This document shows, piece by piece, positions 15,358 through 45,763 of a stretch of DNA of 64,000 nt; position 1 is the stretch's first letter, and each line of letters begins with the position of its first letter. Origin of the DNA: Antedon mediterranea (lineage: Eukaryota > Echinodermata > Crinoidea > Comatulida > Antedonidae); NCBI RefSeq assembly GCF_964355755.1, contig NC_092672.1, positions 19,216,501 to 19,280,500 on the forward strand. Reading direction: 5' to 3'. The position numbers were made by a program, and so were the translations under genes. The notes under the pieces were generated by a model. It saw only the letters and a program-made list of their open reading frames with translations, ran no database searches and was not told the DNA's origin.

Positions 15358-17715
15358 GAATACAGGTCAACCCGTACCCATGCCAACTCGTACCCACCAA
15401 CTCGTACCCAAATTTTGGCTTACTCGTACCCAAAATTTTGGCTGACCCGTACCCATCATTGGCTGACCCGTACCCATCATTGGCTGGCCCGTACCCAAGT
15501 TTAATGCTATTTAAAGTATATTTATATTACATTTAAACCCAGTTTTATTAAATTTTTAGATACCAATCATATGTTCGATATTATAATGGCAAAAACTATT
15601 GACCTAAAATGTATAATAATATGTACAGACTCGTACGTAAAAAGCACAGCTTTCATCGTATTTGCGTACGTCGTATTTATTGGTAAAGTTAATACTTGAG
15701 GGCGCTGTTTTATATGGCTCTGTGGAAGATGTCAGTGGTCGGCTGTGCTGCATTCTATTTTTTTTTCATTTATGAGTTATTAATCTATTATTTTCTACGA
15801 ATAGTAGTACACGGAATTGAAATACCCACTAGTCTGTGATGATGAAAACTTGAATTATTAAAAGTAAACATAAATATCTTTTATACATAATTTGTATTTT
15901 CATTTTATTTTACAGATAATGAAGTAATGTGCTTTTTGAAAATCGTTTTAAAACGAATGGTTTTTGTTGTTTTGTTTTGCAAGTTTTGGAAAATATTAAA
16001 CTGTTTTAACATTTCGAAAATATTTAATACATTTTTAAATAGTCACTCGTATTTTAAAATCACGAAACTATTTAAGTGGATACCAGCCTCATTGCTGCTA
16101 TGAGCATTTAGTAGTAGATTAGATTATTGCCGTTTATCTAGTATACAATGACGGATGTAAGAGTAATAATAAAAGGTAACTACTGTACTAACCTCCAATA
16201 ATTTAACATTTAATTACAAACGACGACATTTGCTGTTATTACGTTTTCATTTTATAATGATTATTACTGTATTATTATGACTAAAAACCGAAATAAATAC
16301 TACTAAAACTTAAAAAAATCATCTTATCGCTGACAGATACGTAAGAACTCAGACACGTGTAGGTAGGCCTTCAGAACGTTTATATTATTTTAGTAAATAA
16401 GACGACATCCGTTGCCATGGAAAAACGATCGTAGTTCATTTCATTTGTCTTATTTGACACATTATAGAATGCGTATTTTTTTTTAAAAAAGGGAATCCCT
16501 CGTCAGCAAAAACACGTAGCTGTAAGTTATTGAGGAAACATCTACCAAAAATGTTTAATTACCGTAAACAAACAGATAATTTTACTGAATTATTTAAGAA
16601 AAAAAATAAATAGAAAACGATCATACGCCACATTGAACCTTTTGGACACACTACAAATGGACCCGTACAAATGCGTTTTTTTTTTTTTTATAATAAAGAG
16701 GAATCCCCATTCAGCAAAAACACGTAGCTGTTATAGAAGAAAATCTGCCAAAATGTTTAATTGCCTTAGGCTACAGTACGACAGTACGTGTATATGATCA
16801 TTTCACTGAATTATTAATAAATAAAATATATGGAAAATGATCATACGTCATTACTAAGTCGTCTCTTTGACGCCGGCCCTATAAATGCGTGTTTTTTATA
16901 ATAAAAGGTTAATCCCGGTCAGAAAAAACACGTAACACGAAATCTACGAGTAATTCGACCCCATAGCCCGGCAGGCTTTTCGCTTAAAACAGGGTGTTGT
17001 TAATTCAACCAATTTTAAATATACCAAATACAATAGAAATAATTACTTGATCGAATGTAATCAGGGAAGATAATTAGAATAAAATAAAAGAATAAAAATT
17101 GATAAGTATAAAATTATACGTTGTTGGTACTTTACCTGGGCTTAATTGAATTGTAATACTAACTATACAACAGTTAAAATATTTTTTTATTAATTAATGT
17201 TCTCTTACGTAAATAAAAAAGACACATCAAACATACGTTTATAAAACTATAATACTAGATTTAAATAAATGTTAACAAATATATGCCTAATTAAACGAAG
17301 TCTACAATCAAATCAATGGTCATTTTTATTAGCACACATTTCACCGAGACCTGTATGTAAAATAAAAAAACAATTTAAATATAAAAATATTCATACGGCA
17401 AAAGCATACCACTAGTTTTACGCCGATCAAATCATTACAAGTAATTATTCAAATTGGGTACGAGTAGGCCAAATAATGGGTACGAGTAAGCCAAAAATGG
17501 GTACGGGTAAGCCAAAAAATGGGTACGAGTAAGCCAAATACTTGGGTACGAGTAAGCCAAATATTTAGGTACGAGTTGACATGGGTACGGGTTGGTTTGG
17601 GTACGGGTTAGCCAAAGTGGGTACGAGTTGACCAATTATTTGGGTACGGGTTAGCCAAGTTGGGTACGAGTTGGCATGGGTACGGGTTGGTTTGGGTACG
17701 GGTTGACCAGCACCC
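15358..17715. mobile_element. Foldback-like element, tandem-array TIRs, family I
   Basis: The left arm (15365-15500) is a tandem array of ACCCGTACCCA / ACTCGTACCCA units separated by GCCAA or TTGGCT. The right arm (17455-17709) is a longer array of the inverse unit (GGGTACGAGTAAGCC, GGGTACGGGTTGGCC). Both ends read RGGTCAACCCGTACCC inward, or with one change. Direct 9-bp flanks ATTCGGCTC lie at 15349-15357 and 17716-17724, a good target-site duplication. The AT-rich interior has no protein frame but has three copies of a block (GGAATCCC, CAGCAAAAACACGTAGCTGT) at 16488, 16698 and 16906, and a GAAATCTACG block at 16938. Those blocks recur in the element at 42680-45193. Tandem-unit TIRs and 9-bp duplications are known from Drosophila Foldback elements. 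Confidence 0.85.
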
Positions 17716-17724
17716 ATTCGGCTC

Positions 17725-18294
17725 CTCTCGAAGATCGAGAGAAGACGAATTGTTTATTCGGCCTACCTGATTATAATGTTATTATTAATAGGCTTATTGA
17801 TGGAAATTCTTCTGTTAATTTAAACGACCTAGGCCCAAGTGAATATTTTATTGCCAAGGAATCATTAATTAGTAATTATCTGTATATTATTCTTCGCAAG
17901 GTAAGGTGTCTAGGCAGGCTTGTTTTAAATACAATACAAATACTATAGGAGGCCTAGCCTAGCTTCACCCAACCCAGCAGACTTGTTCTTGGCTATATAA
18001 TATAACAGATATTGCCTTTTATATCGGTTAAATATAAGATTTGACATCCCCTCGGGAATGATATTAAGTTCTCGGGGAATATATATTTCCCTCAGCTGGC
18101 GCTTCGGGAAATATATATTCCCTCGAACTTAATATCATTCCCTCGGGGATGTCAAATCTTATATTTAACCTCTAAGCAGTCAATATCTGTATAATAGTAT
18201 AGGGCCTAGAGGTAGGATTGAATAAAAATAATAGTTCATTTCCATCCATTTATTGGTCTTATCTTTGCAGATTTATGGAATCAACAGTACATGA
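17725..18294 (+). CDS. Exon-like frames of an unknown gene
   Basis: Not recognised. From about 17725 an open frame (CLFGLPDYNVIINRL, then DLGPSEYFIAKESLISNYL) runs to AAG and a good donor GTAAGG at 17900. A TTTGCAG acceptor at 18270 opens a short in-phase exon 18271-18294 (IYGINST then TGA), and AATAAA words follow at about 18331 and 18555. The residue composition looks more protein-like than random AT-rich DNA. Against it: no ATG lies in this frame outside the repeat array, and after virtual removal of the element at 15358-17715 a TGA sits just upstream in frame. A further upstream exon, loss of the start by the insertion, or chance are all possible. Confidence 0.25.
18026..18170. repeat. 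145-bp near-perfect palindrome
   Basis: Arms of about 65 bases (GGTTAAATATAAGATTTGAC, then CATCCCCTCGGGAATGATAT onward) face each other around CAGCTGGCGCTTCG. An outer inverted pair CAGATATTG (18006-18014) and CAATATCTG (18181-18189) extends the structure. It contains three near-identical CCCTCGGG-type motifs per side. Probably a fold-back MITE with almost no spacer; it could extrude as a cruciform. Confidence 0.9.
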
Positions 18295-18559
18295 GATGGC
18301 TTTGAAGAACTGTAATAGTACTACTGTAGTAATAAAATTGTAAACATCAAATTATATGGCAGAAATAGTGTGTGGAATGAATTTTATTGAATATATGTAT
18401 CATAATGAGTTTGGAACAAGCAGGATTTTTCAAACGGGACATAAATTACTTTTGAGACCTGAGTGATACATTTTAATTCTATCAACACCAGCCAGCTCCA
18501 TCATATTCAAGAGATGGATTCTTTCATAAATGTCCATTGTACATAGTATTTGGCTAAAT

Positions 18560-20364
18560 AAATAAAAAAAGAAGTACAGTAGTGGTTTATTTGTTTACAT
18601 ACCCAGACCCATTTAGATGGTTAAAAACAAACACTATATGTACTGTCTGGTAGTACATTACCATAGTTACAGTATGACTGTAACCCTAGCACTCGCGTCT
18701 AAAGAATTCTATTATGCATATTTTACTATTCTTCATAAATATTTAGTTCTGTAATTTTAATTGTCTGCGCTCATTCTATACTTGGTGTCTTAGTATACTG
18801 CATAAATGTATCGTGCAAGCATGATCCAAGTAGCATCTATTATAAAGTACGCTGGGCATCTTTCTATTCACCTGAAAAAAGGAAAATGAATAAGCACATG
18901 TTTATCTGCCCTCAAAACAAAATAATAATTTAGTATAATGTATTATGTAGGTTTGATCAACAGTTTAAAATAGCAATGCTCAGTATCTGTTACCTTAATA
19001 TTATAATTTCCATTCCAATCACTAAATACATTTGCTTATCCCGTCCATCAATTATCATAGTTGCACTCCAATTATAGACCTGTAGGTAGGTAAAAATACA
19101 AATGAATTGTTTATTTACTGTATACTGTACTGTATATGATACAAGCTGAAATACCCCTAACTAGGCCTGGCCTGTTATAACCTTTATTACTACATTAGAG
19201 AAAATCCACCTCTATTCATTTTATTGGGAATCATAATATTTAGTATTCAGTGTTGCCTAGCCTAGCTAGGTAGGCCCTAGGGCGGCCTGTAATAACAAAA
19301 AAATATTTTAATAATGCGTTAGTCAGGACACTACAGCACACAACAATATTAATAAACGTACTTATAAATAATGTGTATATACATAATACAGTAACACAAT
19401 TGTGCCTACCATTAACACCCTCAACGATACATCAAGGAGCATACGCTCTCAGCTCACCTCTGGCCGGGCGACTAAACACCGTATCCAGCAGTCATCACTA
19501 CTAAAAAGGCCTAGCCCCTAGGCCTAGCTAGCTCCAGGCCATGGCATTGTCAAACACCATTTACTCGTCCAACCGTTTCTTCAAAACGATGTTAACACCC
19601 GTGTTAACAAGACGATGTGGACGAATTTCCATCAATTTCAGTTAATTACAACGAAATAATAATAAAATGAATGTTTCAATAATACGTGTATAGCGAAATA
19701 AACATCGCTCGCGAGAGGAGGGTGAGGGTCGAGAGTGAGGCCAAGGTGGTCGACTCTGTGATTCTCACGCATGCGCAAAATAACTCCGTGTACCCAGCAA
19801 GATAGGCATTTGGCTATGAATTTCGTAAAAGATGGCCTTGAAAAACGAAATTAAAATCCGTTTAAAAAAAAACATGGTTGATAATATGAATTAATTTTAT
19901 TCGATTAGGCTAACATACTTATCCAAGAATAAAAATATCAAAGCGATAAGTAATTACTACCATGCTTTTGCATCAATCAATGATTTACTGCTAAATTCCT
20001 ATCTCTGTAATACAAAAATAACTTTTAGTGACGTCACAAAAAGTTTTTCACAGGTTTCTCAGGGGCGTTTTGAGGGCGTTGTCATCCTCCAAAACATTAA
20101 GTATGACTATGGCAAGCTTAAAACTGATTGATCTACACGTTGAGCCAATAAAATGATATTGCTAGGAACCCTTTCATATCCATTTTAACCCCTTGTGATT
20201 TTTCTTAAGGAAATATGCATAATGATACCGTACTATTTCTTGGATTAAAAAGGGCTAGTAACTATTGTTTACATACATACATATCTATATCTAGTTTACC
20301 CGCGTCTAACACTGAATAACCATGTGCTTAAAATATATTATCATTACTAGGCCTGTTACGTTAC
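18560..20364. other. HECT intron segment, mostly featureless
   Basis: AT-rich with scattered AGGCCTA words. The only structure seen is a CpG-richer part at 19430-19800. Confidence 0.5.
19430..19800. promoter_or_regulatory. Possible promoter-like CpG block
   Basis: It contains GGCCGGGCGACTAAACACCG, a run of GAG/CGAG-rich sequence, and ACGCATGCGCA, which resembles the NRF1 core GCGCATGCGC. No transcript start or exon can be attached to it, so the call is tentative. Confidence 0.2.
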
Positions 20365-20835
20365 CTGTAAAACAAAAAATGCTTCAACAGACTTGACACG
20401 ACTTGTTGTTTTTGATTGAAATCCGAGTTATACAACGTCATGACTCCTTGATCTGCCACCCAATCCGATAATTCATGTGAAATAGTACGGTACTCATCCG
20501 TCGTTTGGCAATTTGCAATCTGGATAAAAAGATACTGTAATCAAATTCTTTACAAATATACAAAAATTAAATACAAATTCATCGTAAGCCTATTAGGCCT
20601 ACACGTGTGATAAAAGACAATGTAGGTCTACACGTTTTGCCGCGTGTATTATAGGCCTATTAGGTTTGGGTTAAATAAGTTTATTGTGGTTTCTGTAGGC
20701 CTACGTGTTTTAAAAAATAATCAGACCGTAAATAACAAAATTTATATTTAAAAAAATGTAAAAAAGAAATTGTATTAATTTAACTTTTGCTATTTTAATA
20801 TTTATTTATTTATTTTTATTTTATGTCTTTAGGCA

Positions 20836-21105
20836 ATGTGGCCAAGGATTACCAATAGTGAATTAATCACTGTCCTATCAGATAGGTGGTAATCCCCCTG
20901 ATACAGGGGCTATTGTGTGAACCAGTTCACCGGGGTAACCCCCTACTCTTTTTCGAATAATGAACTGGGTTCTTTAAAGTACACACAGGTTATAACTGTG
21001 TACACTGGACCTACGGTTTATAGTCCTTATCCGAGAAGACTTGTTCCACCACCAGAACTAGGAGCGAGTCGGCCTCGAACCCTTGCCGATGTTAGTAAAA
21101 GTTAA
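20836..21105 (-). mobile_element. tRNA-related SINE
   Basis: On the minus strand a B-box-like GGGTTCGAGGCC occurs near the start, followed by a conserved-looking body (TCTTCTCGGATAAGGACTAT, then GAACCCAGTTCATT) and ending near a GCCACATTGCC motif. A B box plus a non-tRNA body is the layout of tRNA-derived SINEs. The A box is not clear, so the 5' end may be truncated. It lies in the HECT intron between exons 21235-21499 and 20365-20519. Confidence 0.6.
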
Positions 21106-21779
21106 ATTAATAACATTTCTTAAAAATGTTATAAATAAAAAGTCCGTTAGGTAACGTATAGAATATTTTAACATAACAAATATTCCCATAAGTTATTTGA
21201 TGCCTTGTTAGAATGGTAAACGAAAATCACTTGCCTTTGCTATCTTGCCTCGGACATCTATGTCACACACACTATTAACGTCCGAAAATCCATTTGACTT
21301 TAACCCACACATTAGCTTGAAAAGCTCTGGTTGCAAAGTTGGTAAGCCCGGACCTCCATGCAATAGACTCCATGCAACGAAACTACCAGCCATAGCATAT
21401 TTGCGTTGCTCTAATAGCTCTATGTTATGGGTAAAATTTTGTTTCCCCACTTCTCCTTCCAGCACTCCCAACTGTTCGCAAACTGCTTTCATTAGTAGTC
21501 TATATAAATCAAAGTGCACAATAAGAATTATCAGAAAAGCGCAACCAGTATACATTGTTTAAAATAAATATTGCTCAAAATGTTACTGTAACAATAAAAT
21601 ACACACATACATACATACGTGCGTATACACTGGGCATACGAAACCAAAGATACAAAAAAATAAAAAAGTAACCAACAACGTCCAAACCAAAAAGTATGAG
21701 GGATACGCCTTTGTCATTAACTAGATTTTTTGTCTACAATTGCATTCCGGCCAGTACCCCAGCCAAGTGCGAAGGCTTG

Positions 21780-21857
21780 TTTCGCACGGTTCAACATCCG
21801 TCAGGGGGTATCTGGAACCCGCCGTATCTGGAACCCGCCCCGCCTGTTACGCCACTG
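21780..21857 (-). mobile_element. hAT-like terminal fragment
   Basis: Read on the minus strand it begins CAGTGGCGTAACAGGC and continues GGGGCGGGTTCCAGATACGG. CAGTGGCGTA-type starts are common in hAT transposons. A duplicated GTATCTGGAACCCGCC unit lies inside. No partner end was found, so this is a remnant. Confidence 0.5.
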
Positions 21858-22492
21858 TATATAGTGTTAATTATAGGGAGTTTTATAAAAAAAATTATAC
21901 AAATAGCACTATAGTACATTGCAAGAATAATCACCAAGTACTAACAATATAAGACAATGTTTAGTTGAGCATGCACATAGATATCAGTAATGTGTCCAAT
22001 AAAGGTCCAAACCCAACATTTCTCTTGTAGGTCTTTCTTTCTTTCTTTCTTTATTCTTTCTTTCTTTATTAAAAACAAACCAATTGGCAGCAAATCTGCT
22101 GAATTGCATGGTAAGGGACAATATACATTCAAAAGACAAGTAAAGTAATAGTCATTATTAAACAAAATTATCGCAATTACAAAATATATGTAAATGTAAA
22201 CATAACGTTAAAAAAAAATAGTCTTATTGCAAGGATATAGTATATACATTATTACTTAATTACAGTATAAAAATATAATCTTAAATTTAAGTTGCAGTAT
22301 TTACATTGGTTTCTTAATTAAAGTCGACTTCAGACAAATAGATAATTACAATTATACATTTACAAAAACATTAAATACAAAATTAAATGAGAATTAAGAA
22401 TAAAATGAGTCAAATTCAAGAAATTTCTACTAGGCCTATATGTCAAATTAATTAATATCTGGTTACATTATACATTTATTTTCTTTTATTAT

Positions 22493-24843
22493 TTAATCAA
22501 TACTGTTGAGGCAGCGAGTGAGAAACGGGATTGCACTGTTTCCATATCTATTTGTCTTATTTTTGGGGACCTGGTATGTATTACTTTTCCGTAAGGCCAT
22601 ATTATGCGTACTCATATTTCTCGGAAACCACTCAGCATATCTATACGCATTAGCACATTTCTTTGCAAATTCAATGCAAAGTTGGTAACGTCTCTCAGTC
22701 ATGGTATGGAGTCCCAACTGCTTCAGTGATTCCGTGTATGATACGTAATCCGCACCCACGATAATGCAATAGGGTTGGTGAAATCTGTCCATAATAGGTT
22801 ACTTTTCTGTCCATAATAGGGGACTTTCTGTCCATAATAGGGACTAGAGGGCGCTGTTGTTTGTCCATAATGTTAGGCGGTTCCTTCATAAAACAAACCT
22901 GCATAGCCTTGCACTTACTGGGGTTGAGCTCGAGACGGTTGTCCGTTGCCCAAGCATCCAGATCCTGAACATCCACTCCAATCTGGCTGGGTTGATTTGC
23001 GGGACGAACTTCTACAAGGCTGAGGTCATCAACATACTTAAAGCTTTCAGCCAGAGACTCCTCAGAGGCATTATTGATAACTACCATGAAGATTATGGGG
23101 CCTAGCTTGGTGCCTTGTGGGACGCCACAGGAAAGCGTCTCCCACCGTGACAAGGCAGAGTGGTATTGCACTCGTTGGCGACGAGATGTAAGGAAGTTTG
23201 TTATCCATGGCAGTAACTCGCTTCTGACACCAAGCTCGAAGAGTCTCTGAATAGCTAAAGTATGATCGATACAGTCAAACGCCTTGGAAAAGTCCGTCAC
23301 AATAAGGGTGCCAACATTCTTACCCTTGTCTGTACCTTTAAAAAACAAATCAAGTATTTCAATAAGATGGATGATCAGTGGATGATCCTTTTATGCCACC
23401 ATATTGGTTACGATCAATTTCTTTACCTATATCTTCCATAACCCAGTTGGAAACAAATCCCTCGCATACCTTTGCAAGAATCGATGTCAAAGATATTGGT
23501 CTTAATTTAGAGATTGAGGCAGGGGTAGTCTTTGGGATAGGGGAAATTGTGGCATCCTTCCACATTTTAGGAACAATTCCCTCTTTTAGAGATGAGTTAA
23601 ATAAGTCACAAACGGGAACGCTAAACTCGCACGCGAACTCTTTAAGAAGTCTCCCAGGGAGGCCGTCGGGTCCAGCCGCTTTCTTACTTTTCAAATTTTT
23701 CAAGTTATTGTACATTTCCCACACTTCAATCTTAGGTGGAGCATTTGCAGGTAGAAAGGTAGGTAATCGTTTTAAGTTGATTGGGGGTCTACCTTGGGTG
23801 ACAGAAGCAAATTCATTACTTATAGCTTCTGCTATTGCTTTGTTATCATCTGGTTGGACTCCTGGGACAGTAATAATGGCTCGCAGTTGGCATTTGTTTG
23901 TTATTAGTTGAATACCTTTGTGCCAGCCAGACGGGTCACTTGACTTAAGATTTTGAATGCGATCTCTGTAATGGAATTTCTTTGCCTGATCTATGATTCG
24001 TATAACTTTGTTGCGCAAGAAACGCCAGAGAAACATCTTTTTCTCAGCAAAAGCAATCTGTCGTTTTCTAATTAAGTCTTTTATCTCAGTAGAGATCCAT
24101 GGTTTGTCCTGAGAATGATGTTTAATTAATTTAGTAGGGAAGTGATTGTCAATTGCATCCTGAACGGTAGTGTAAAATGCATCAGCCTTATCAGATGTAG
24201 AGGATGCATCAAGAACTTCATACCAAGGATGATTGGTTATCCATCTTCCAAACTCATAAATACAATGTTTACGTAATGGCCTAACTAATCGTTTAATTTG
24301 TTTACCCGTTTTACTACATCCGATTGGTGGCAGGTAGATGGTATTATGATCGCTTCTTCCAATCGGAGAGCATACAATAGGCTTCTTATAATAGTTCTTT
24401 AAATTAGTAATTACCAAATCTAATATGGCATCACCCCGGGTAGGCTCGTCTATAATCTGCTTCAACGAGTGAGCTCTACATAGCGGATTTATATTTAGTC
24501 TGTTAAAGTCGCCTAAAACCAGAACGCCTGCTTCTGGGTGGGCAGCTTTTAAAGTATCCAAAGATGTTATAATATGTTCAATCAACACCTCTTTAAATTC
24601 TGAGTTTGGAGGAATAATATATACTGCACAAATGAAAATTGCTGACACGACGCGTGGTAGACGATGAGGACGTACTCGAAGCCATATGCATTCCAATTCA
24701 TCTGGGACAATGATGTTATTTAATGTACTTACAGGTAGGTTGTCCTTGACATAAACGGCCACTCCACCCCCACGCTTTCCACTTCTCGTCGTAGTAAAAA
24801 CATTAAACCCGCTTACTGCTATATAGTCATTATCAACCTTATC
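22493..24843 (-). pseudogene. LINE endonuclease-reverse transcriptase remnant
   Basis: From high to low coordinates: an AP-endonuclease part with VLVLGDFN (about 24510) and GRSDHNTIYL (about 24350), then the reverse transcriptase with AAGPDGLPGRLLKEF, LRPISLTSILAKV, VTDFSKAFDCIDH, SCGVPQGTKLGP and the catalytic FKYVDD box (about 23025). A frameshift lies between 23348 and 23365, just after GSSTDH. At about 22784-22874 some 80-odd codons expected between the palm and the C-terminal part are replaced by a short repeat array. The C-terminal part resumes in another frame (IIVGADYVSYTESL to YGNSAIPFLTRCLN). The copy cannot make a full protein. Confidence 0.9.
22784..22874. repeat. Four TCTGTCCATAATAGG units inside the LINE
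   Basis: Direct units TCTGTCCATAATAGG at about 22784, 22808 and 22830, plus TTTGTCCATAAT at 22860. They sit exactly where LINE coding sequence is missing and include AGAGGGCGCTG between units 3 and 4. This looks like the residue of a tandem-array element or a repair patch. Confidence 0.75.
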
Positions 24844-24845
24844 TG

Positions 24846-24960
24846 ATTGGGGTGTGTAGAAAGCGACGACCTCGAATTGGACGACCCCAACGACCCGGGC
24901 GACCTCGAATTGGACGACCTCGAATTGAACGACCCATAACACGAAACCGACGACCCCTAT
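24846..24960. repeat. TTGGACGACC repeat at the LINE breakpoint
   Basis: Several units of CCTCGAATTGGACGACC / CCCCAACGACCCGGG in direct orientation. The first 55 bp, starting GGTGTGTAGAAAGCGACGAC, is repeated nearly exactly at 26367-26418, where it joins an unrelated repeat. It marks a duplicated or mobile junction. Confidence 0.7.
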
Positions 24961-25227
24961 AATAGCCTAGCCTAGGCCTAAGTATGGTATAACCATGGAG
25001 TATAACATCCCGAAGCCGAACATAACCAAAGATCTTTAAACCATACCTTATATAATACTCGCAAGCAAGCAATTGATTGAAAAAATACAGAAATATCGCC
25101 ATTTGATACTGAATGTGTCGACACGAACAAACGAACAGATATGGAACGCCAAGAGTGCATCATTAAAACTGCATTCGACTCGATTAGCACACGAAATATC
25201 ATAAACATGGCAAACCTTTTTTTTTTC

Positions 25228-25345
25228 AGCGGCAGGTAAGGTTTTACCATGGAGGTATCTATTTTACCTCTATGGTTTGACCAGCTCCATGGTTTGACCA
25301 TGGAGGTATACAAATATTTTTATATACCTCCATGGTTTGACCGTA
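25228..25345. repeat. Cluster of CATGGAGGTAT hairpins
   Basis: Alternating CCATGGAGGTAT and TACCTCCATGGTTTGACC units in both orientations, able to form several overlapping hairpins. Related short copies occur at about 37398 (CATGGAGGTATCTCCATGGT) and, weaker, at 44310. Confidence 0.65.
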
Positions 25346-25403
25346 TACAATGCATGTGCGAAATGTAAAGCTTTCTTATGGCCCTCCCCATGCAGGATTA
25401 GGC

Positions 25404-26182
25404 CAAGTTGAGCCGCCGACAAGTTGAGGCGCCGCCAGAAAAACGTTATTTTCTATGAAACGCCAAATGCTTACTTTCGCCGGTGCTCGTTACTATTTAA
25501 TAGAAGTTCTATTTATATTAATTATTAGATATAACGATGTATATTCCAAAGTTTATATATCACGGTTTTTAGTATATATTATTAAATATTGTAATTAAAG
25601 AGAAATAATTATGAATATCTGACTTGTAGATTCCAAAATATAAGGCCTAAAACATGACCGAAAATGATCGTTTTTAGCCAAAAATGACGTAAACATGTTG
25701 CCCCCTCAGGCGGCAGTTGAAGTAAAATAATTGCATAAAATCACCGTTTTTTAGTAAAATATTTTGTGTATTAACATTGTAAAATTCAATAAAATATGAT
25801 ATTAAAAGATAGTAAATAAAAAATAATAATTATTTAACCTCATTCGAAGAATATCAATACTCTATTAGTCCTGAGAGACAACGTGATTTTACGTGGTAGG
25901 CATACACGCGAGAAAAATATTATGGAGTGCACTGCATTTTTACCTTGAAAGATTAAAAACAATTAAATTATTAAATATTACTACTTTCCTTTGCTGTTTC
26001 AAACCAACAAAATTGTAGTATGTAATCATTATTTATTTTCATGACACAATAAACCTAAAGAGCATGAACTTATGTAGGGCCTACTAGGACACCACTCTAT
26101 CACTACGCGAAATGTCATAAAAGACGCACTGGCCGTTTTTCATAGAAATTACCGGCGGCTCAACTTGTCGGCGGCCCAACCG
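25404..26182. mobile_element. Inverted-repeat element, array TIRs, family III
   Basis: The left end has two units (AAGTTGAGCCGCCGAC, AAGTTGAGGCGCCGCC) and the right end has the inverse (GGCGGCTCAACTTGTCGGCG). Inside both arms a TTTCTATGAAA motif follows (25450 and inverted at 26136). A related CTCAGGCGGCAGTTGA occurs internally at about 25706. About 780 bp, AT-rich interior, no protein frame, no clear target-site duplication. Confidence 0.75.
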
Positions 26183-26193
26183 GTCATATCCCC

Positions 26194-28490: not shown

Positions 28491-28495
28491 TAGAC

Positions 28496-28572: not shown

Positions 28573-28644
28573 GAAATAAGATTTTTTTTTTATTATTCGT
28601 ATTGTTTGTTCAAATTTATTTCTTAGTGTATATATTATACACAT

Positions 28645-31734: not shown

Positions 31735-32155
31735 TCGAATTATTAATTCGAAATAACGAATTAAAAATTTGAATTAACGAATTACTAATTTGAAATTTCG
31801 AATTACTAATTTGAAATTTCAAATTATTAATTCGAAATAACGAATTACTAATTCGAAATTTCGAATTATTAATTCGAAATTTCGAATTATTAATTCGAAA
31901 TAACGAATTACTAATTCGAAATTTCGTTCGAAATTTCGAATTAATAATTTGAAATAACGAAATAAATAATTCGAAATTTCGAATTAATAATTCGAAATTT
32001 CGAATTATTAATTCGAAATTTCGAATTAGTAATTCGTTATTTCGAATTAATAATTCGAAATTTCGAATTATTAATTCGAAATTTCAAATTACTTAAATAA
32101 ATTCGAAATAACGAATTAATAATTCGAAAAAACGAATTAATAATTCGTTATTTCG
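31735..32155. repeat. Palindromic AATTCG tract of copy B
   Basis: About 420 bp of the same GAATTANTAATTCGAAATTTC-type units as at 10205-10728, somewhat shorter and with different unit order, showing that the array expands or contracts within the element. Confidence 0.9.
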
Positions 32156-32377
32156 AATTTGTGAAAGCAATATTATTTTTTTGTTGGCCTTAATAGGCTT
32201 TCGTAGACCGCTGATACGTATTGATCCTATAATCTCATGCTGTGGTTTATATTAGACTAATGTTTCCATTAAAATACATAGTTGTTTAGTTTAAATAAAC
32301 ACCTTTGAAAACTTGATAAAAACCGAAAAAAAAACCTGTATAACATTATAATTAACAATCATTGGTTTTGTCTAAAT

Positions 32378-32465: not shown

Positions 32466-32574
32466 GAACCGTCAGCAAGTCCAACAACAACCATTTGCTG
32501 ACAATGTATTACAATGGAATAACACTTAAATGTATAACACACCCTATTACTAATAATAAAAACCAAGATTCGAT

Positions 32575-33905
32575 AGTACAGTATGTAAATGAGATATAAA
32601 TATTCGGCAATACCGTACGTAAATTATTATTGCAATACTGTATAAAGATTCGATAGTATGTAAACAAGATATAAATATTCGGCAATACCGTACGTAAATT
32701 ATTAATGCAATACTGTATAAAGATTCGATTAAGTCTGTAAATGAGATATCAAGATTCGGCAATACCGTACGTAAATTATTAATGCAATACTGTATAAAGA
32801 TTCGATAGTATGTAAAAATGAGATATAAAAGATTCGGCAATACTGTACGTAAATTATTAATGCAATACTGTTTAAAGATTCAATGTAAACGAGATATAAA
32901 GATTCGGCAATACCGTACGTAAATTATTAATGCAATACTGTATAAAGATTCGATAGTATGTCAAATGAGATATCAAGATTCGGCATGCAATACCGTACGT
33001 AAATTATTAATGCAATACTGTATAAAGATTCAATAGTACATATGTCAAATGAGATATCAAGATTCGGCAATACCGTACGTAAATTATTAATGCAATACTG
33101 TATAAAGATTCGATATTATGTAAAAATTAGATATAAACAATACCGTACGTAAATTATTATTGCAATACTGTATAAAGATTCAATAGTATGTAAACGAGAT
33201 ATGATTTGGCAATACCGTATACGTAAATTATTAATGCAATACTGTATAAAGATTCGATAGTATATAAACGAGATATAAATATTCGACAATACCGTACGTA
33301 AATTATTATTGCAATACTGTATAAAGATTCGATAGTATGTAAACAAGATATAAATATTCGGCAATACCGTACGTAAATTATTAATGCAATACTGTATAAA
33401 GATTCGATAGTATGTAAACAAGATATAAACATTCGGCAATACCGTACGTAAATTATTAATGCAATATACTGTATAAAGATTCGATAGTATGTAAACGAGA
33501 TATAAAGATTCGGCAATACCGTACGTAAATTATTAATGCAATAGGCTACTGTATAAACTTCGATAGTATGTAAATGAGATATAAATATTCGGCAATACCG
33601 TACGTAAATTATTATTGCAATACTGTATAAAATTCGATAGTTAAATGTAAATGAGATATAAATATTCGGCAATACCGTACGTAAATTATTATTGCAATAC
33701 TGTATAAAATTCGATAGTATGTAAATGAGATATAAAGATTCGACAATACCGTACGTAAATTATTATTATTATTGCAATACTGTATAAGGATTCAATTGCA
33801 TATAAACGAGATATAAAGATTCGGCAATACCGTATACGTAAATTATTATTGCAATACTGTATAAGGATTCAATAGTATGTAAACGAGATATAAAGGTTCG
33901 GCAAA
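32575..33905 (+). repeat. 70-80 bp satellite, about 17 units
   Basis: The core AATACCGTACGTAAATTATT recurs at 32609, 32684, 32761, 32839, 32909, 32989, 33069 and onward to about 33826, with unit length varying from 70 to 85 bp. Between cores lie GCAATACTGTATAAAGATTC and a GAGATATAAA segment. The repetitive open frames across it (for example 33157-33672 on the minus strand) are only the satellite translated. It ends about 300 bp before the SDR start codon. Confidence 0.92.
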
Positions 33906-37200: not shown

Positions 37201-40200
37201 GACAATATGCCCTTGTTCAGGGTATGAAATCCTTTTGACATTAAAAAGCTCAACATATTAACTATTCTGTCCAGACATTTGGTATGGCTAACATAACAAC
37301 AATATCTTATACATAATTAGAATATCGGTCAGCTACAACTAACTAAACAAATTCAATATTCCAATGAGCTTGTGCTGATGTGTAGGGTTAGTTAGATCAT
37401 GGAGGTATCTCCATGGTTAGATTAGAGCCCAAGTAAGCAGCAGGTACTGAGAACCAACAAGTAACTTTGTATCAGGGAGCTACAAATGTTTCCCTTATTC
37501 CAACCAATAGTTTTTGACAATATGTACTTAGTCCGTGTTTCCGCAAAAAACAGGGTTTAACCGGTTCTACTCAAGAAAAATTAACCAATATTATTATTGA
37601 ATAAATGTTTAACCTTTGACCTGAAGGACAAATTTTTATGTTCTGATTTGTGCACTTAGTTGTTTGGTAGGTAATGACTGACCGTGCACTTTATTTTTAA
37701 TTAATTACCAGATAATTTTTTTATGACTGGGGAAACACGGCCTTAGTATCAATATTAAATTCAAAGGTAATTGTAATCTTTTCTTTTATTTAGGAAGTGT
37801 TGTAAATATTTCAAGTGTAACTGGTAAAAGGGCTGTAAGTACATTCAGGACATCTAATATTTTTTTATCTAATTTTAATTATTCATTTCATCATTATTTT
37901 TCACTAAAAGTTGAGATGATAAATGTGTATTGTTATCTTCTATTTCAGTTTCCTGGTCTTCTTTCTTATTGTATGTCCAAGAGTACTATAGATCACATGA
38001 CTGTTTTTATCTTCTATTTCAGTTTCCTGGCCTTCTTTCTTATTGTATGTCCAAGAGTACTATAGATCACATGACTGCATGTGCTTCTCAAGGTAAGTTG
38101 CAACATTAGTGTAACTATTGAATGACAACTGCTGATCAAGTTAACCAAAGTTAGTTGGAAAAAACGAAGCCCCACCTCCTTTGTCTGTAAAATTAATCTT
38201 GAAATCAAGTTGTCTATGCTTTTTGTGAAGATAAACTATTTGAATATCAAAGGAACAAGGTGATTTAATGGCAAATAATTTGGGATGCATATATAATGTA
38301 TATAATCAAGTGTATATCATACCTGTACATTCATTTTACAGTATAAAATAATGGTGTTTTGATAACAAATATGTAAAATTGGCAGGTAATGTCTAAACAA
38401 TCATTTTGAAAAGAAGCCACCTTCATTAGGTTGCAAAAGTAATCTAGAAAAGAAGCCCATTTTAAAAAGAAGCCCACTTAAGAGTGTGGCTTTTTTAGGT
38501 TACGGTATGTCATTGTTACTTCCTTTTTCATTAGTCAAGCAGAGCTTGAAAACCTATTTTGTGGGCCAAATGTACTAATAGATCATAAACAGATCTTTAG
38601 TCACATGCCCTTAAACTAGTTCAACAACATACCATATCAATAATTACTCTTTTTTTTAAGAACTTGCAATTAAAGGAGTCCGAGTAAATGCTGTAAAGTA
38701 AGTATTTACAACCATATTACAAATTAAAGGGCACTTGGAGAGTGTATCCCTCCACCTACAGTAATTTATAATTTTCCTATATCAAATTTATCCCAAAACA
38801 TTTTTTGCCTTAGTAAGGTAATTAGACCTGATTGCACTAAATAGCAAGTTTATTTTAGTTTATGTTGTTTGTAAGAATAAACTCTGACCCTGAGACATGA
38901 TATGAACTCAGGACCAATAGATTGGATAGCAAGCATCAAACATTTACATTCTATTGCTGACAAAGCACAAGCATTCACCAAGTGGAATACCACTCTGCCA
39001 AGTGAAAAACTTTCTAAAAAATGACAGTTTAAATCCTCTATTTTATTATATAGATATTTGCAGTATACCTTTTCTTAAAAAATATTGTATATTATGCAGT
39101 ATACAAAAACTAGTTTTAGATTGCTTAAAAGTCACTTTGAAACTTTTTTCAGCCCTGGTGTTATTATAACAGAAGTACACAAAAGAGGTGGAATGTCTGA
39201 TGAGATGTATGCTAAGGTAAATATTCACACGCTTCAATTAATCACATATAATATTTTGGCCTCTCCAAGATTTAAATAATGACTAATGTTCAATGTGTAA
39301 TGTAATGCACGCCTAAGATATTACACCTCATGTACGACTAGACTAAGAGTAAAATATAAAAGTTAATTATATCTCAACCGTAATAGTAATAGTTACTAGC
39401 GATTATTCATTTACCTGACGTTTTGCCAACTATCAGTTGGCTTTCTCAAAGTGTAGTGACACGTATGTCACGTTGACCTCTAGATGACGCTGAGTTAAGG
39501 AATCCATCTGGATCAGGAAGATCCCCAATTTTAATAGAGATGAGGCCGGTTACAAACTCAGTCAAGTGTGGACCAATGTGTTGACCCCGTCATCTAGAGG
39601 TAAACGGTGACATACGTGTCACTACACTTTGAGAAAGCCAACTGATAGTTGGCGAAACGTCAGGTAAATAAAATAATCGTTATTTACTATTACTATTACG
39701 GTTGAGATATAATTAACTTTTATATTTTATTAGTAATACCAACCAAATGAATCTTTTTAATGATAGACTAAGAGTGAATATTAAATGTAAAGTTGTTTCC
39801 TGGGAGAGTGGTTTTCAATTGTGAAATTCACAAAACCTAGAACACATGAGAATGTATCAGTCAGTTATGGAGTTAGAACCCTCAATCTAGAAAACATGAG
39901 AATGTATCGGTCAGTTATGGAGTTGAAACCCCAATTTAGAAAACATGAGAATGTATCAGTCAGTTATGGATTTGAAACCCTTAATCTAGAAAACATGAGA
40001 ATGTATCAGTCAGTTATGGATTTGAAACCCTTAATCTAGAAAACATGAGAATGTATCAGTCAGTTATGGATTTGAAACCCTTAATCTAGAAAACATGAGA
40101 ATGTATCAGTCAGTTATGGATTTGAAACCCTTAATCTAGAAAACATGAGAATGTATCAGTCAGTTATGGATTTGAAACTCTTAATCTAGAAAACATGAGA

Positions 40201-40600
40201 ATGTATCAGTCAGTTATGGATTTGAAACCCTTAATCTAGAAAACATGAGAATGTATCAGTCAGTTATGACGTTCAAACCCCCAATCTAGAAAACATGAGA
40301 ATGAACTAGTCTGTATTACGTTCAAACCCCCGACATAGTGTTACCAGACACCAATTAAACAACAAAAACCATGTTTGAGGAAGCTCTGCATCATCTACAT
40401 TAATAGTTTGATGTGAATTCTATTTTTAGTTCCTTGAACATTGTAAAGAGACTCATGCAATGGGACGCCCAGGAACAGTGGATGAAGTAGCCAAGTTAGT
40501 TACATTCCTTGCATCAGATGAATCCTCATACATCACAGGAGAATCTATTGCCATTGATGGAGGACGTCATGTTCTTATGTCTTCACAACAGAAAGTTTGA
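34202..40600 (+). CDS. Short-chain dehydrogenase/reductase (classical SDR), 263 aa, 8 exons
   Basis: Exons 34202-34238, 36190-36329, 36901-37132, 37794-37834, 38023-38092, 38661-38697, 39153-39216 and 40430-40600 join without phase conflict into 263 codons. The fold is a Rossmann NAD(P)H-dependent oxidoreductase: cofactor motif TGASSGIG (12-19), D66, NNAG (92-95), active-site N117, S144, Y157 and K161 (YCMSK), then NPGVIIT (186-192) and the C-terminal [11 protein letters not shown]. The length is typical for classical SDRs. There is no signal peptide or membrane segment, so it is probably a soluble enzyme; similar invertebrate proteins are often named FabG-like, but the substrate cannot be told from sequence. 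The start is chosen because [13 protein letters not shown] is a standard SDR N-terminus. Introns carry an inverted-repeat element, a SINE, a fold-back and a 50-bp satellite. An upstream duplicate of the exon 5 acceptor exists at 37949. Confidence 0.95.
34874..35902. mobile_element. Inverted-repeat element in SDR intron 1
   Basis: The ends ATACCCCTTTTACACTATC (34874-34892) and GATAGTGTAAAAAGGGTAT (35884-35902) form a 19-bp inverted pair with one mismatch. Subterminal parts repeat GTGTAAA-type words (AGTGTAAATGG). No protein frame in about 1 kb, and no clear target-site duplication. Confidence 0.65.
37933..38077 (+). repeat. 74-bp tandem duplication across SDR exon 5 acceptor
   Basis: Units 37933-38003 and 38007-38077 differ by one base in the exon part (GGTCTT against GGCCTT). 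Each holds a polypyrimidine tract, AG, and the first 55 exon bases including the catalytic YCMSK codons. Only the second copy continues to a donor. Using the first acceptor reads through the second unit out of frame to TAG within ACTATAG. Confidence 0.95.
38885..38943 (-). mobile_element. SINE fragment in SDR intron 6
   Basis: On the minus strand GATGCTTGCTATCCAATCTA, GGTCCTGAGTTC and TGTCTCAGGGT match the tRNA-derived SINE at 57306-57402. The 5' A-box part is absent. Confidence 0.6.
39350..39730. mobile_element. Long-armed fold-back in SDR intron 7
   Basis: Arms of about 135 bp (39351-39488 and 39588-39730) pair over AAAAGTTAATTATATCTCAA, TTTACCTGACGTTTTGCCAA, GCTTTCTCAAAGTGTAGTGA and CATCTAGAGG. 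The loop is about 100 bp. The motif CCAACTGATAGTTGGCGAAA followed by CGTCAGG resembles terminal sequences of Penelope-like elements, which is inference. No coding capacity. Confidence 0.85.
39835..40330 (+). repeat. 50-bp tandem repeat, about 10 units
   Basis: Unit around GAAAACATGAGAATGTATCA, GTCAGTTATGGATTTGAAAC, CCTTAATCTA. The first and last units are diverged and the central ones nearly identical. It lies in SDR intron 7, about 100 bp before the last exon. Confidence 0.93.
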
Positions 40601-40849
40601 TTAATAGTGTAGTTTGCTACTGAATTTTGGAAGGCAAATCTACAGTGTATTCATTCATATACCCTACAGTACACATTAAAATAATGTGCAAGTGTATATA
40701 AAATAGAGATTTATATAACGACAAAAATTCGAAATCGTAAGACAGTATTCAAATACTTGAAGTAGATTTTCAAATATTTTACCAGAAATGTCAGTAATAA
40801 ATAGTCAAAGCGTTTAATATGTATGAATAATAATTTAAACTTATTATGT

Positions 40850-41148
40850 ATCCATGTCCTTCAGAATCAGATGCTCATGCTATGTCAGTGTATATCACTT
40901 TATGTACAGTACCCATGCCCATCAGAATCAGATGCTCATGCTATGGCAGTGTATATCACTTTATGTACAGTATCCATGTCCATCAGAATCAGATGCTCAT
41001 GCTATGGCAGTGTATATCACTTTATGTACAGTATCCATGTCCATCAGAATCAGATGCTCATGCTATAGCAGTGTATATCACTTTATGTACAGTACCCATG
41101 CCCATCAGAAGCAGATGCTCATGCTATGGCAGTGTATATCACTTTTAA
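40850..41148 (+). repeat. 61-bp tandem repeat, almost 5 units
   Basis: Unit around CATGTCCATCAGAATCAGAT, GCTCATGCTATGGCAGTGTA, TATCACTTTATGTACAGTAT. It starts 250 bp after the SDR stop and about 50 bp after an AATAAA (40796-40801), so it is either in an extended 3' UTR or just downstream. Its period of 61 opens all three frames; these are not genes. Confidence 0.93.
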
Positions 41149-41869
41149 CTTTGATACAAAGGTTCTATGTTATCTATAGACCTCTACTAAATTCTGACAG
41201 TTTGTGCTGTATAATCATTAATTTAAAAATTCTTATGTGACCATACAAATTACAAAGAGTTAATCCACATTATTTGCATCAGGCAATTTTTTTGGGTGTG
41301 ATTAATTTTCAAATACAGTATTGATATTGGTATATTGTAAGTGAATTAATGTTAATGACGTACAGTGAACAAAATAAACTCTGGCCAACAACTCTGTGTT
41401 TAAATGAACAATACATCAGTCATTTATAATAAATGGGATAAACTCAATAGATACAATATTGACCCCGAAATGATGAAGTCTGTACTCGTATCATATGTAG
41501 TGTATTCTTATAATCTTATTTTGTAGGCAAAAAGATAGCAAAAGATGAGACGTTAAAATGTATATATGTTTTGTTCCTTTAAAATCGTTAGTCAAAATGT
41601 GATGTCTTTCCTCAAAACTTGTTGTTCACTCGGAATAGTCTCGGAATAGTAACGTCCCCTTCAAATATTTTGTTTCTTCAAGATATTGTTTCGTAGGGTT
41701 TGTAGATATTGGCTCAACAATTTAAAAATATTTATTACGTAAAGAAAGATATAATTATCCTCTACCTGTATATGCTCTAGGTCTAAAAAGTCCAGGCAAT
41801 CTGTGGATTGACCCAAAACAAATTGCAATAGTTTCAAAACTTGGTTTTTTCTGATTCTGTGATTATCGA
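41149..41869. other. Downstream flank of the SDR gene
   Basis: AT-rich and without exons or recognised repeats. Another AATAAA at about 41371 could serve a long 3' UTR. Confidence 0.4.
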
Positions 41870-42335
41870 TATTTCTCGAAAATAGAGTTCGCCACTAAAC
41901 TTTTCAATATTGTGTTCTATAGAAAGGTCTATAAATAAATTTCAAAAACAGGGACCATAAAATATCATGAAACACAGACCCCACTGAAACTTCTCAATAT
42001 TGTGTTCTATAGGGTGGTCTCTGTTCTTGAGATTTCATGAAAACCTCACTAAGACTTCTCAATCTTATGTTCTAGGGTCTGTCCCAGAGATTTCGATATT
42101 ATGTTCTTTAGCAAAGGTTTCTGATTTTAATAAATCTTGAAAACCGAGACCACCTTATAGAATAAAACATTGAAATATTTAGTATGGGTATATTAATAAT
42201 TAATGACATAGTGATTAGTTTTCAAGAAATCTCGAAAACACAGATCCCCATTAAAACTTCTCAATATTGTGGTCTCTGTTTTCGAGAAATCTATAAAAAT
42301 ACAGAGGCAATACTAGAAATTCTCAATATTGGGAT

Positions 42336-42501
42336 AAGCTCTGTTTATACTATCGAACTTTATGTGACAAAAAGTATGTGATGTGCCCAAATAATGGTAG
42401 TGATATGCTAAATTAGGGTAGTGGTATGACATCATCATGTCCATATATGGGGACATCACATTTTTTTTCTCACATAAAGTGTGATAGTGTAGACACGGCT
42501 T
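42336..42501. mobile_element. Fold-back MITE, GTGTAGACAC family
   Basis: Arms AAGCTCTGTTTATACTATCG, AACTTTATGTGAC on the left and the inverse CACATAAAGTGTGATAGTGT, AGACACGGCTT on the right, continuing inward to GATGTGCCC / GGGACATCAC. About 166 bp and non-coding. Relatives lie at 4071-4135 and 52885-53005. Confidence 0.8.
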
Positions 42502-42759
42502 CAGATTCGATTTATTAAGTCATTTATACCTCCATGTTCATACATAGTATAATGATAATTGTTTTCTAGGCAGGATAACACAGGCATAACAACACACACA
42601 TACTATTTACATTCGTGATCAACTTGGAACTAACAACAACAACTGATCAAGCAATATAAAATACAACAGACCGGGTGCAGGTCAAGTCGGCCCCAAACCA
42701 TCTCGGCCAAAGTCAAGTCGGCCCCAAGTCAACTCGGCTTCAAGTCAACTCGGCCTCAC

Positions 42760-44085
42760 CAGGGGCGCAGCCAGTGGGGGGGTCACGGGGGTCCTGACCC
42801 CCTTTTTTTTTTAGAAAAAATAAATAAAAACATGAGACAACAATACAGATCAAATCATCCTGGAGATACTGTGGAAGATTACTACCGAGCACTATTACCA
42901 AATCAACTTCTTGATCATTTACAAACCGAGTTAAAAACCCGTTTTTCTTCCGATAACAGGCCATGCTTTAAAATATTTGGCGTAGCACCCGAGTCTATCG
43001 TGAAGTGTAATGTTGAAGAAGTCTTCAAGGAACTTGAATTTGGTGCGATGATCTGCCAAGACACGAACATCTAATTCATTCCGAGCTTCAGTGATGGAAG
43101 AAGCGACTGTGTAAAATTAGCGGATCCAATCCAGATGTGTTCCCGAATGTGCGTTCACTTCTTCTAATCGCGTAGGCCAATTCCCGTAACGTCTGCTGAA
43201 GCTGAGCGGAGTTTTTCGACTTTGTGGAGAACGAAAACCTGTTTGCGAAATCACATGTCTTATGAGCAGCTTTCGGGATTGTGCCTCATGAACATACACT
43301 TTAACATGAACATTAATACAGAGAATGTCATTCGCGAATTCTGTCTCCAAGCCGAGAAGAATGTTCCAAACTTATGTTTAAAGATGCATCACGCGATGTC
43401 TAGAGCGCCGTTATAGTAACTAACGTAAAATGTATGATAATAATTTAGAAGTTAGTTATTACAATTATGTATAAGCTATCACCTATACTATACATTCGAA
43501 CAAAATAGGTATATTTTTAAACAAAATATTGTATGTACTGGGTATGATAAGCGTCTCACATACACACGGAGCCAAGATAGCTTCTTGGACTTGCACAGTG
43601 TATGAACTCTAACCTTACGGTTCTCATTTAATAATATCACTCCATGCTATCATTCTAATTTCTTTTTTCAAACTTTTGCAACTCTGCGTTCATTTCATGC
43701 AACTTTTGTATTGGTGAAAAAGGAGGAATTCAAATAATCCCTCCTCTGAGTTTACAGCCTCTCTACACAAATCAACAAACAAGCAAGAAAAAAAGTGTTT
43801 GTCTGTGGCAGCCTGGAATATAAAAATGTTCTGTAATAAAAATGAGAGTTGTTTTTGTTTTCTTTGTTTCAGTTTATTAGTGTTAACATTGTCATATTTG
43901 TGTGTGCGTAAACCGATTCAAATGATCTAGATTGCGCTAGACCGCCAAAGCTTCCAGGGCCCCCTGGACCCCAACCGGGGCCCTTGGCGGCCCCCTGGCC
44001 CCCAGCCCATGGTTGCTCGCTTCGCTCGCAAAATACTCACATATTGGTTGACCCCCCCATTAATTCTTTGCTGGCTGCGCCCCTG
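42760..44085 (+). mobile_element. hAT transposon, internally deleted, nested
   Basis: Inverted ends CAGGGGCGCAGCCAG and CTGGCTGCGCCCCTG, flanked by CTCAC on both sides (42755-42759 and 44086-44090). The element sits inside the left array of the family II element. Removing it with one CTCAC restores CTCGGCCTCACGTCAACTTG, which matches the inverse of the opposite arm around 45063-45089. The right subterminal GC-rich part (CGCTTCGCTCGCAAAATA, GGGCCCTTGGCGGCCCCCTG) is shared, inverted, with the element at 49762-51354. Confidence 0.93.
42832..43416 (+). pseudogene. hAT transposase remnant
   Basis: The first piece (42832-43074) reads TVEDYYRALLPNQLLDHLQT and ELKTRFSSDN, typical of the middle of hAT transposases related to the 52-kDa repressor group. 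The second piece (about 43140-43416) holds the C-terminal dimerisation signature PVTSAEAERSFSTL, TKTCLRNHMSYEQLSGLCL, with at least one frameshift between RSLLLIA and PVTSAEAE. N-terminal zinc finger and most of the catalytic core are missing. Non-functional. Confidence 0.88.
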
Positions 44086-45763
44086 CTCACGTCAACTTGG
44101 CCAAAAACTAATCGGTCAACTCGGCCACAATAAAGTATGGAACGCAAAAAGTGCTTAATATTATTATGATTATTACTATCCACTCTTTAAAAAAAATTAA
44201 GAAATAAGAAAATAAAAAAATGATATCATTGCCGATATGAATAGAAGTACCCGCGTTTTACAAAAACACGTGCAGGTACCACATTTTAGTAAATCGAAGA
44301 CCATCATGGAGCTATTATAGCTCCATGGTTCCACCATTTGGCCATAGAAAAATTATCGTACTGTACATATCGTTTTTGTCCATGATTTGCGTTTTTAAAA
44401 AAGGGGAATCCCCCGGTCAGTGAAAACACGTCGTAGCAGTTGTAGATATCGAAATAGCTGCCAAAGGCACAGGGAGGCGCAGCTACGAATTCAGATTTCA
44501 GGTTTCAGATGTTGTCGCCTAATCAAATGCATACACTGAAGAAATCTACGCGTGATTCAACCATAGCGTTAACATTAATTAATACCTCAATGATTCAACC
44601 AAACAATCCAACCAAACAATCTTATTACACCTAATATATGTACTCTCATATCGGACATGTTTATTGAATTTTGACGCACGAATGAACATACGCGCCCACG
44701 TACGTGCATCATCATATTGGGTGTATGCCTACAATGTGTTCCTATTTATTATCAAAATGTTCATATTGTAATCATTAATAATAGTATGAATGCTAGCTTA
44801 TTAATCAATTGTTTGTTATGCGCAATTTCAGAACAATTTGTGCAATTTGAAATTTTATTAAACGTAATAAAGAAAAATTGGTGAAATCCTTCTTTTTTTT
44901 TTTTGCTAAAAGTATTATTGTCTAAATATTAATATTCATTAAAAGTCAGAATTATTCATAGGTAATAAAATGTGAAGAAATATTATTTTATCAATCCCCT
45001 TCCTTTGCACCTTTTGCATTCCATAATTTAACGGGGCCGAGTTGACCGATTATATTTTGGCCGAGTTGACGTGAGGCCGAGTTGAATTGAGGCCGAGTTG
45101 ACTTGAGGCCGAGTTGACTTGGGGCCGACTTGACTTGGGGCCGACTTGACTTGGGGCCGACTTGACTTTGGCCGAGACGGTTTAGGGCCGACTTGGATCG
45201 AAATCTAAACCTAATGACCGATCTCATTGTTGTGCAGTCTAAGAGGGGGTCGTTATTGTCAGGACTTTTTGAAATCGAAGATCCCCACTAAAAATATTTC
45301 AATATTGTATTCATACTGGGTCTCTGTTGTGCGGTTTTCGAAAACAAAGACTACCACTAAAAGTTTACAATATTAAGTTTTACGATTTTTGTTGTTTTGT
45401 CGTAAAACACAGTAGGAGTTTTGAGAGACCTTAACTAAACAGGGAAACCAACTTAACACAATTATTGAAAACTTTTACTGTGAACAAAGATCTCTACTCA
45501 AAAATCTTCTCAATATTGTATTCTGTACCGTGTTTCTGTTTTTGGGTTTTTGAAAATAGAGACCCCTCCCCGACAAAAAGTTCACAATATTATTTTCAAG
45601 AGGTTGGGTTTTCTCTGTTTCTGTGAAATAATGAAAACAGAGATTCCTACTAAAAATAATTGTGTTTTAGGTGGAGCCTTTTGTTTTCAATATTACTTAA
45701 AAACATAGACCCCGGCCCACTAAACTGTCAATATTATGTAATTTATACAGTACAGTAGGGGGA

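Follow-up and report, generated by a model that had tools for sequence, protein, structure and literature searches.

Likely sibling foldback-like transposon families with diverged terminal arrays in the genome of Antedon mediterranea

A window of 64,000 bp on contig 3 (positions 19216501-19280500) of the 354 Mb genome of the crinoid Antedon mediterranea contains two nonautonomous DNA transposons, element 1 (family 1) and element 2 (family 2). The terminal inverted repeats (TIRs) of both consist of short tandem units, and their interiors share sequence blocks (Table 1). An earlier note on this DNA held that the terminal units of the two elements are unrelated and that a single mobile family replaces or rewrites its terminal arrays while keeping its core. 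Our comparison of the ends and of copies throughout the genome points elsewhere: the elements likely belong to sibling families of the Mutator/Foldback type that arose from one ancestor and whose units diverged by lineage. The earlier note placed element 1 exactly, at 15358-17715, and a perfect 9-bp duplication, ATTCGGCTC, lies on either side of it (15349-15357/17716-17724). Element 2 is longer than the 42680-45193 given there and runs from 42673 to 45205; its flanks were checked for a matching target-site duplication and none was found. As had been noted, neither element contains a transposase frame, the hAT insertion within element 2 excepted. This 1.33-kb insertion carries a hAT dimerisation domain (PF05699, E = 4e-7) and is absent from the other family-2 copies, most of which are 1.0-1.3 kb long. 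A second fragment of the same hAT piece, 78% identical and on the opposite strand, lies at 49820-49942 of the window.

The interior blocks occur in the same order and on the same strand in both elements, as first reported: AATCCC..CAG..AAAACACGT at 16492, 16700, ~16910 and 44405, and a second block, GAAATCTACG.GT.ATTC, at 16939 and 44541. The three occurrences in element 1 are not independent sites but copies of a ~190-210 bp tandem repeat in its interior. Between the single copies the interior match covers 40 bp (87.5%, E = 2e-5 against the whole window). Comparison of family consensuses, built from 22 family-1 and 15 family-2 copies, yielded a co-linear interior alignment of 136 bp (69%, E = 4e-9), two matches to the other block copies and a co-linear match in the AT-rich sequence upstream (E = 5e-5). 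With the arrays removed the similarity persists, at a best local score of 39 as compared to 17.1±1.9 for dinucleotide shuffles (n = 300, maximum 26; 0/300 reach 39) and 16 for the reverse strand. The alignment with family 1 takes in only a portion of the family-2 interior (~0.9 kb), and the remainder of the interiors is not recognisably similar. The second block, searched as GAAATCTACGNGTNATTC, has 72 matches genome-wide and none in the reversed sequence that served as control for all pattern counts; each match is the family-1 form, the family-2 form or a single-base variant, and no third form occurs among the 72. Judged by these alignments, the interior similarity is real and beyond chance, and appears to be shared by descent.

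As with the interiors, the ends of the two families can be aligned. Both families have TIRs. In the outer 110 bp the two arms match at 85% in family 1 and at 91% in family 2, and they are built of GGGTACGRGTTGACC units in family 1 and GGCCGAGTTGACTT units in family 2. Read inward, the tips are GAATACAGGTCAACCCGTACCC and GGGTGCTGGTCAACCCGTACCC in family 1, GGGTGCAGGTCAAGTCGGCCCC and GATTTCGATCCAAGTCGGCCCT in family 2, and GGGTGCAGGTCAACTCGGCCC and GGTTTCGATCCAACTCGGCCC in a third family described below. The outermost 7 bp are asymmetric (GAATACA/GGGTGCT in family 1, GGGTGCA/GATTTCG in family 2). At the best-matching tips, the outermost 13 bp of family 1, GGGTGCTGGTCAA, and of family 2, GGGTGCAGGTCAA, are identical at 12/13 positions at the exact ends. 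The outermost array units agree at 11/15 positions, a value equalled at any rotation by 0.7% of shuffled units, and GGGTACGAGTTGACCAATTATTT from the family-1 array aligns with GGGGCCGAGTTGACCGATTATTT from the family-2 array (E = 6e-6). The array against array score is 25 with a shuffle maximum of 15 (n = 500), a comparison that flatters the match since shuffling abolishes the periodicity. One terminal pattern, GGGTGCWGGTCAAVNCGNMCC, covers all end types and has 250 matches (reversed control 0). On the strength of these alignments, the tips and arrays of families 1 and 2 are homologous, diverged versions of each other rather than unrelated sequences. Ends are as a rule the best conserved part of a transposon, and the seeming exception is thereby corrected: the outermost tip is kept, and it is the amplified unit that drifts between lineages.

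Unit type was scored at 30 loci of each family. All 30 family-1 loci have family-1 units, with none of the family-2 type inside the element, while 29/30 family-2 loci have family-2 units only, the other having none, and family-1 units were found inside none of them. No element with a mixed array was present among the 30 + 30 loci. The tip dinucleotide of family 1 is CC/CC in all 25 copies read at both ends; in family 2 the right end is GT in every case read and the left end is GT (17), AT (3) or TT (1). Left and right arms within a copy resemble each other no more closely than arms taken from separate copies do (0.852 vs 0.852; 0.914 vs 0.910), so the arrays are not homogenised or rewritten copy by copy, and the arm comparison gave no sign of per-copy gene conversion between arms. 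Together, the lack of mixed copies and the arm comparison indicate that arrays are inherited, not rewritten.

Table 1. Features of elements 1 and 2 and their positions in the window.
Feature	Position	Strand	Remark
Left target-site duplication of element 1, ATTCGGCTC	15349..15357	.	
Element 1, family 1, nonautonomous, 2358 bp	15358..17715	+	27 both-ended copies in family
Element 1 left tip GAATACAGGTCAA, with the shared GGTCAA after 6-7 asymmetric outer bp	15358..15370	+	
Element 1 left array arm, reverse complement of GGGTACGRGT units	15365..15497	+	
Element 1 shared interior block, copy 1, AATCCC..CAG..AAAACACGT	16492..16517	+	
Element 1 shared interior block, copy 2	16700..16725	+	
Element 1 shared interior block, copy 3	16910..16934	+	
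Element 1 second shared interior block GAAATCTACGAGTAATTC	16939..16956	+	72 genomic matches, control 0
Element 1 right array arm, GGGTACGRGTWRRCC units	17455..17709	+	
Element 1 right tip, inward reading GGGTGCTGGTCAA	17703..17715	-	
Right target-site duplication of element 1, ATTCGGCTC	17716..17724	.	
Element 2, family 2, nonautonomous, ~1.2 kb minus hAT insert	42673..45205	+	Target-site duplication not visible at this copy
Element 2 left tip GGGTGCAGGTCAA, 12/13 identical to element 1 right tip	42673..42685	+	
Element 2 left array arm, outer part	42680..42759	+	Resumes past hAT insert at ~44086-44131
hAT-derived insertion with broken frames; terminal inverted repeats CAGGGGCGCAGCCAG; CTCAC as apparent 5-bp duplication	42760..44085	+	
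Element 2 shared interior block GGAATCCCCCGGTCAGTGAAAACACGT	44405..44431	+	
Element 2 second shared interior block GAAATCTACGCGTGATTC	44541..44558	+	
Element 2 right array arm, GGCCGAGTTGACTT units	45033..45199	+	
Element 2 right tip, inward reading GATTTCGATCCAAGTCGGCC	45186..45205	-	82 genomic matches, control 0

Both families are dispersed, with at least 40 copies each genome-wide, and have fixed ends. The median pairwise Kimura two-parameter distance (K2P) is 1.8% in family 1 (minimum 0.0008) and 4.7% in family 2. Exact target-site duplications flank 20 of the 27 both-ended family-1 copies (11 of 9 bp, 9 of 8 bp) and 18 of the 22 both-ended family-2 copies (17 of 8 bp, one of 9 bp; three represent one duplicated locus). 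With exact 8-9 bp duplications at 38/49 both-ended elements, families 1 and 2 are nonautonomous cut-and-paste DNA transposons, mobile and young; the mobility proposed by the earlier note thus stands. In the inverted arms of element 1, GGGTACGRGT-type units can be detected 7 times on the left and 13 times on the right, numbers shared by most genomic copies. A 458-bp derivative (L078) is internally deleted to the arrays almost alone, and a 4.1-kb family-1 element (L077) has the interior repeat, here with a period of ~186 bp, expanded in two stretches around an insert of ~1 kb. In family 2, a 5.2-kb locus (L079) is a Gypsy retrotransposon within an element.

Three arrangements of copies were also observed. 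Two family-1 elements, L025 and L026 (C6:23956722 and 23959095), lie head to tail with few bases between them as a double element. The positions C3:16164085 and 16164212 mark two right tips, one of family 1 and one of family 2, that point towards each other across ~0.1 kb. A family-2 copy on C1:10.13-10.97 Mb (L058-L060 and further matches) is repeated at least six times; the three copies read, L058-L060, have the identical target duplication TTTACAAA, and these repeats probably belong to a larger segmental duplication.

Family 3 combines a family-2 type tip, array and adjoining AAAGTATGGAAYGCAAAAAGTGCT segment with a different interior of ~2 kb; in the parts of the elements that were read, neither the family-1 nor the family-2 core is detectable. 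About 30 copies were found, typically ~2.05 kb end to end and many of them 97-100% identical, including the young copies L086, L087, L088 and L092 (C1:11713619-11717690, C2:24875810-24877858, C8:8259730-8264100 and others). The tip variant is CTCGGCCC at both ends, and all pairs read CTCGG/CTCGG. Compared with family 2, family 3 shows the usual pattern of a conserved terminus and a changed core, the opposite of array replacement. One 4.4-kb copy, part of which is L092, has no coding sequence in the part read. A further small insert, with GTCGACTCCGCCTAAGTCGAA inverted ends, lies at ~1620-2390 of L092; we take it to resemble a pogo/Tigger-type miniature inverted-repeat transposable element (MITE). 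At 3239-3450 of L092, an apparent first coding exon with a GTAAGT donor immediately precedes a short array and tip of family-2 type.

The anatomy of these elements, with long TIRs of tandem short units, is of the foldback type, and their 8-9 bp duplications fall in the range of 8-11 bp of Mutator-like elements (MULEs) (PMC6446971). Closest in anatomy is Tm1, a Mutator/Phantom foldback of root-knot nematodes with asymmetric 7-bp outer motifs, TIR units of 13-15 bp and 8-10 bp duplications (PMC3169594). As in Tm1, the asymmetric 7-bp tips lie just inside the duplication (Tm1 A2 inward GGGTAGG; here GGGTGCT/A), the arms have a variable number of short tandem units, and copies are mostly MITE-like and without genes (PMC3169594). 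Because the anatomy is that of Tm1 and the duplications are 8-9 bp, we favour the Mutator/Foldback reading. The elements are nevertheless not members of Tm1, whose unit is CGATTCAGTATCCGC as compared to GGGTACGRGTTGACC and GGCCGAGTTGACTT here. Tm1 also has one transposase-coding copy in M. incognita, whereas none was found among the ends listed here, and it is reported to be senescent, whereas several families with diverged units coexist in Antedon and some copies are nearly identical.

In the simplest history, an ancestral element would have split, its units would have turned over in the source copy of each lineage, and separate bursts of copying would have followed. Each family has asymmetric outer tips of 6-7 bp, next a shared GGTCAA-type motif, and then arms of 14-22 bp tandem units that elongate the terminal unit. 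The arrays are probably multimerised binding sites, diverged by lineage, to which a transposase encoded elsewhere and acting in trans presumably binds; this transposase would pair the two arms, excise the element and insert it with a target duplication of 8-9 bp. After the split every repeat of both arms would have taken on a new unit, ..CCCGTACCC in family 1, ..GTCGGCCC in family 2 and ..CTCGGCCC in family 3; the simplest route would be concerted turnover within a source copy that then multiplied in a burst. An interior patch without a known role would have stayed recognisable through this divergence. The Mutator type of the transposase, the arrays as its binding sites and the cause of the unit change are what we infer from anatomy and from the pattern of copies. 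Perhaps the unit acts as a recognition password that turns over as a block when a family is founded while the outer tip stays fixed, so that incompatible families with a common core coexist; we consider this stronger version improbable.

Several results weigh against a Mutator origin. Merlin would be equally compatible with 8-9 bp duplications, and P or hAT with those of 8 bp; hAT elements have an 8-bp duplication and CA..TG tips, and the tips here begin with G and many duplications are of 9 bp. The lists for two end types comprise at least 100 places each and cover contigs 5-11 in part for those types. A comparison of the positions of MULE, IS1595 and P domains with the listed ends and cores turned up no transposase between such ends and no domain convincingly inside an element. 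MULE domains occur in the genome, some in long frames (intact ones include five copies of 651 amino acids and frames at C3:23577446 and C5:26129873), with none demonstrably between these ends. The nearest MULE relic is frame-broken and sits ~5 kb inward of a decayed family-3 end (L093, C4:10911178), and a MULE frame of 709 amino acids lies ~4.5 kb beyond a family-2 copy (C2:13049051), next to which the L055 flank shows no array or long frame in the part read. Both could be chance. For a relic placed like that of L093, a rough estimate is 0.1-0.3 chance coincidences (~430 strict ends, 6 kb each, 36 MULE matches, one direction). The only P domain within 30 kb of the listed ends is a short relic 3 kb from a family-2 end. 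The long end-to-end elements of 4.1, 5.2 and 4.4 kb (L077, L079, L092) proved to be a repeat expansion with an insert, a Gypsy insertion and noncoding where read. Because an autonomous partner was not found, membership in the Mutator superfamily is inferred only: the elements work like Mutator elements and are not proven members.

Other candidates for a partner were rejected. L072, in which short tandem repeats lie close to a MULE domain, resembles a gene of exons and introns beside unrelated arrays, and the single ends L081-L085 are array remnants or small derivatives. Outward-facing GGATACAGG ends ~5.5 kb apart were considered as a composite transposon; L076 (C3:9412900-9420900), which has this arrangement, is a palindromic repeat of more than 7 kb without a long frame and with a family-1-type array relic in each arm. 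The ~5.5-kb spacing recurs at no fewer than seven places in the genome.

One family may instead be a chimera that acquired some of its interior from the other through gene conversion or ectopic recombination, so that the common ancestry of the ends is older than that of the core. The partial alignment of the family-2 interior would fit such an event, family 3 demonstrates that the core can change under the same ends, and Galileo provides a precedent in copies that combine TIRs and interior of different subfamilies (PMC3573991). We nonetheless regard a chimera as unlikely: co-linearity of the shared patches extends across several hundred bases, their identity of 69-87% is about that of the array units, and no junction of sharply higher identity was seen. 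It is also rather doubtful that the transposase is of the Merlin (IS1595) type and the anatomy convergent. Duplications of 8 and 9 bp are mixed, IS1595 domains exist in the genome and some Merlin families carry tandem repeats (PMC8101967), yet none of the listed ends and cores has an IS1595 domain within 39 kb, and array TIRs with asymmetric tips are documented for the Mutator/Phantom element Tm1. Active replacement of the arrays around a kept core, leaving termini less conserved than the interior, we judge very unlikely. The families do differ at many array positions while sharing the 136-bp patch and the second block; against this stand the 12/13 match of the tips, the 11/15 match of the outer units, the alignment of the arrays, the lack of mixed or copy-wise homogenised arrays, and family 3 with its family-2 termini around another core. 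That the shared block is an unrelated third repeat inserted in both families is barely credible: in family 1 it does sit within a ~186-210 bp tandem repeat that expands in some copies such as L077, yet all 72 genomic matches have one of the two family forms or differ by a single base, and no insertion boundaries or duplications surround the block in either family.

The reading as sibling families of Mutator/Foldback type can also be set beside other foldbacks. Most foldbacks have been placed in Mutator, and for Tetris of Drosophila virilis this assignment was inferred from its 8-10 bp duplication (PMC4079207). Like the elements here it is a gene-less, foldback-like element with long repetitive TIRs and no autonomous copy (PMC4079207), whereas its TIR units are ~220 bp and it has no pair of families with diverged short units. 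Galileo, of the P superfamily in Drosophila, has long, internally repetitive TIRs, subfamilies with diverged TIRs and many internally deleted copies (PMC3573991, PMC3688188), and its tandem TIR repeats hold several transposase-binding sites (PMC3688188). It differs in its 7-bp duplications, its P transposase and its chimeric subfamily copies, of which none were seen here. Rehavkus, which is related to Mutator, resembles these families in its 9-bp duplications, a minisatellite near one end and its animal hosts (PMC6446971). Its minisatellite lies only before the 3' TIR and its transposase has a PHD finger, and neither is matched here. The TU elements of the sea urchin (Liebermann et al. 1983, as cited in PMC4079207) are reportedly foldback elements with long inverted repeats, an outer domain of short tandem units and modular interiors. 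By description they are like the Antedon families in both the short-unit outer domain and the modular interiors.

These are new families of a known kind of transposon, of note chiefly because several of them, with units that are homologous yet distinct, coexist. At least three young families with such units in one genome would form a natural test set for joint change of transposase binding and end sites; in the literature cited here, transposase-binding data on repeated end sites come mainly from Drosophila Galileo.

The window also contains other tandem repeats. Two arrays of a 21-bp self-complementary AATTCGAAATTTCGAATTAAT-type unit lie ~21 kb apart, at 10215-10732 and 31735-32159. Further arrays are found at 32580-33904 (77-bp unit, 17 copies), at 39837-40303 (50-bp unit, 9 copies, 95% alike) and at 40848-41145 (61-bp unit, 5 copies, 95% alike).

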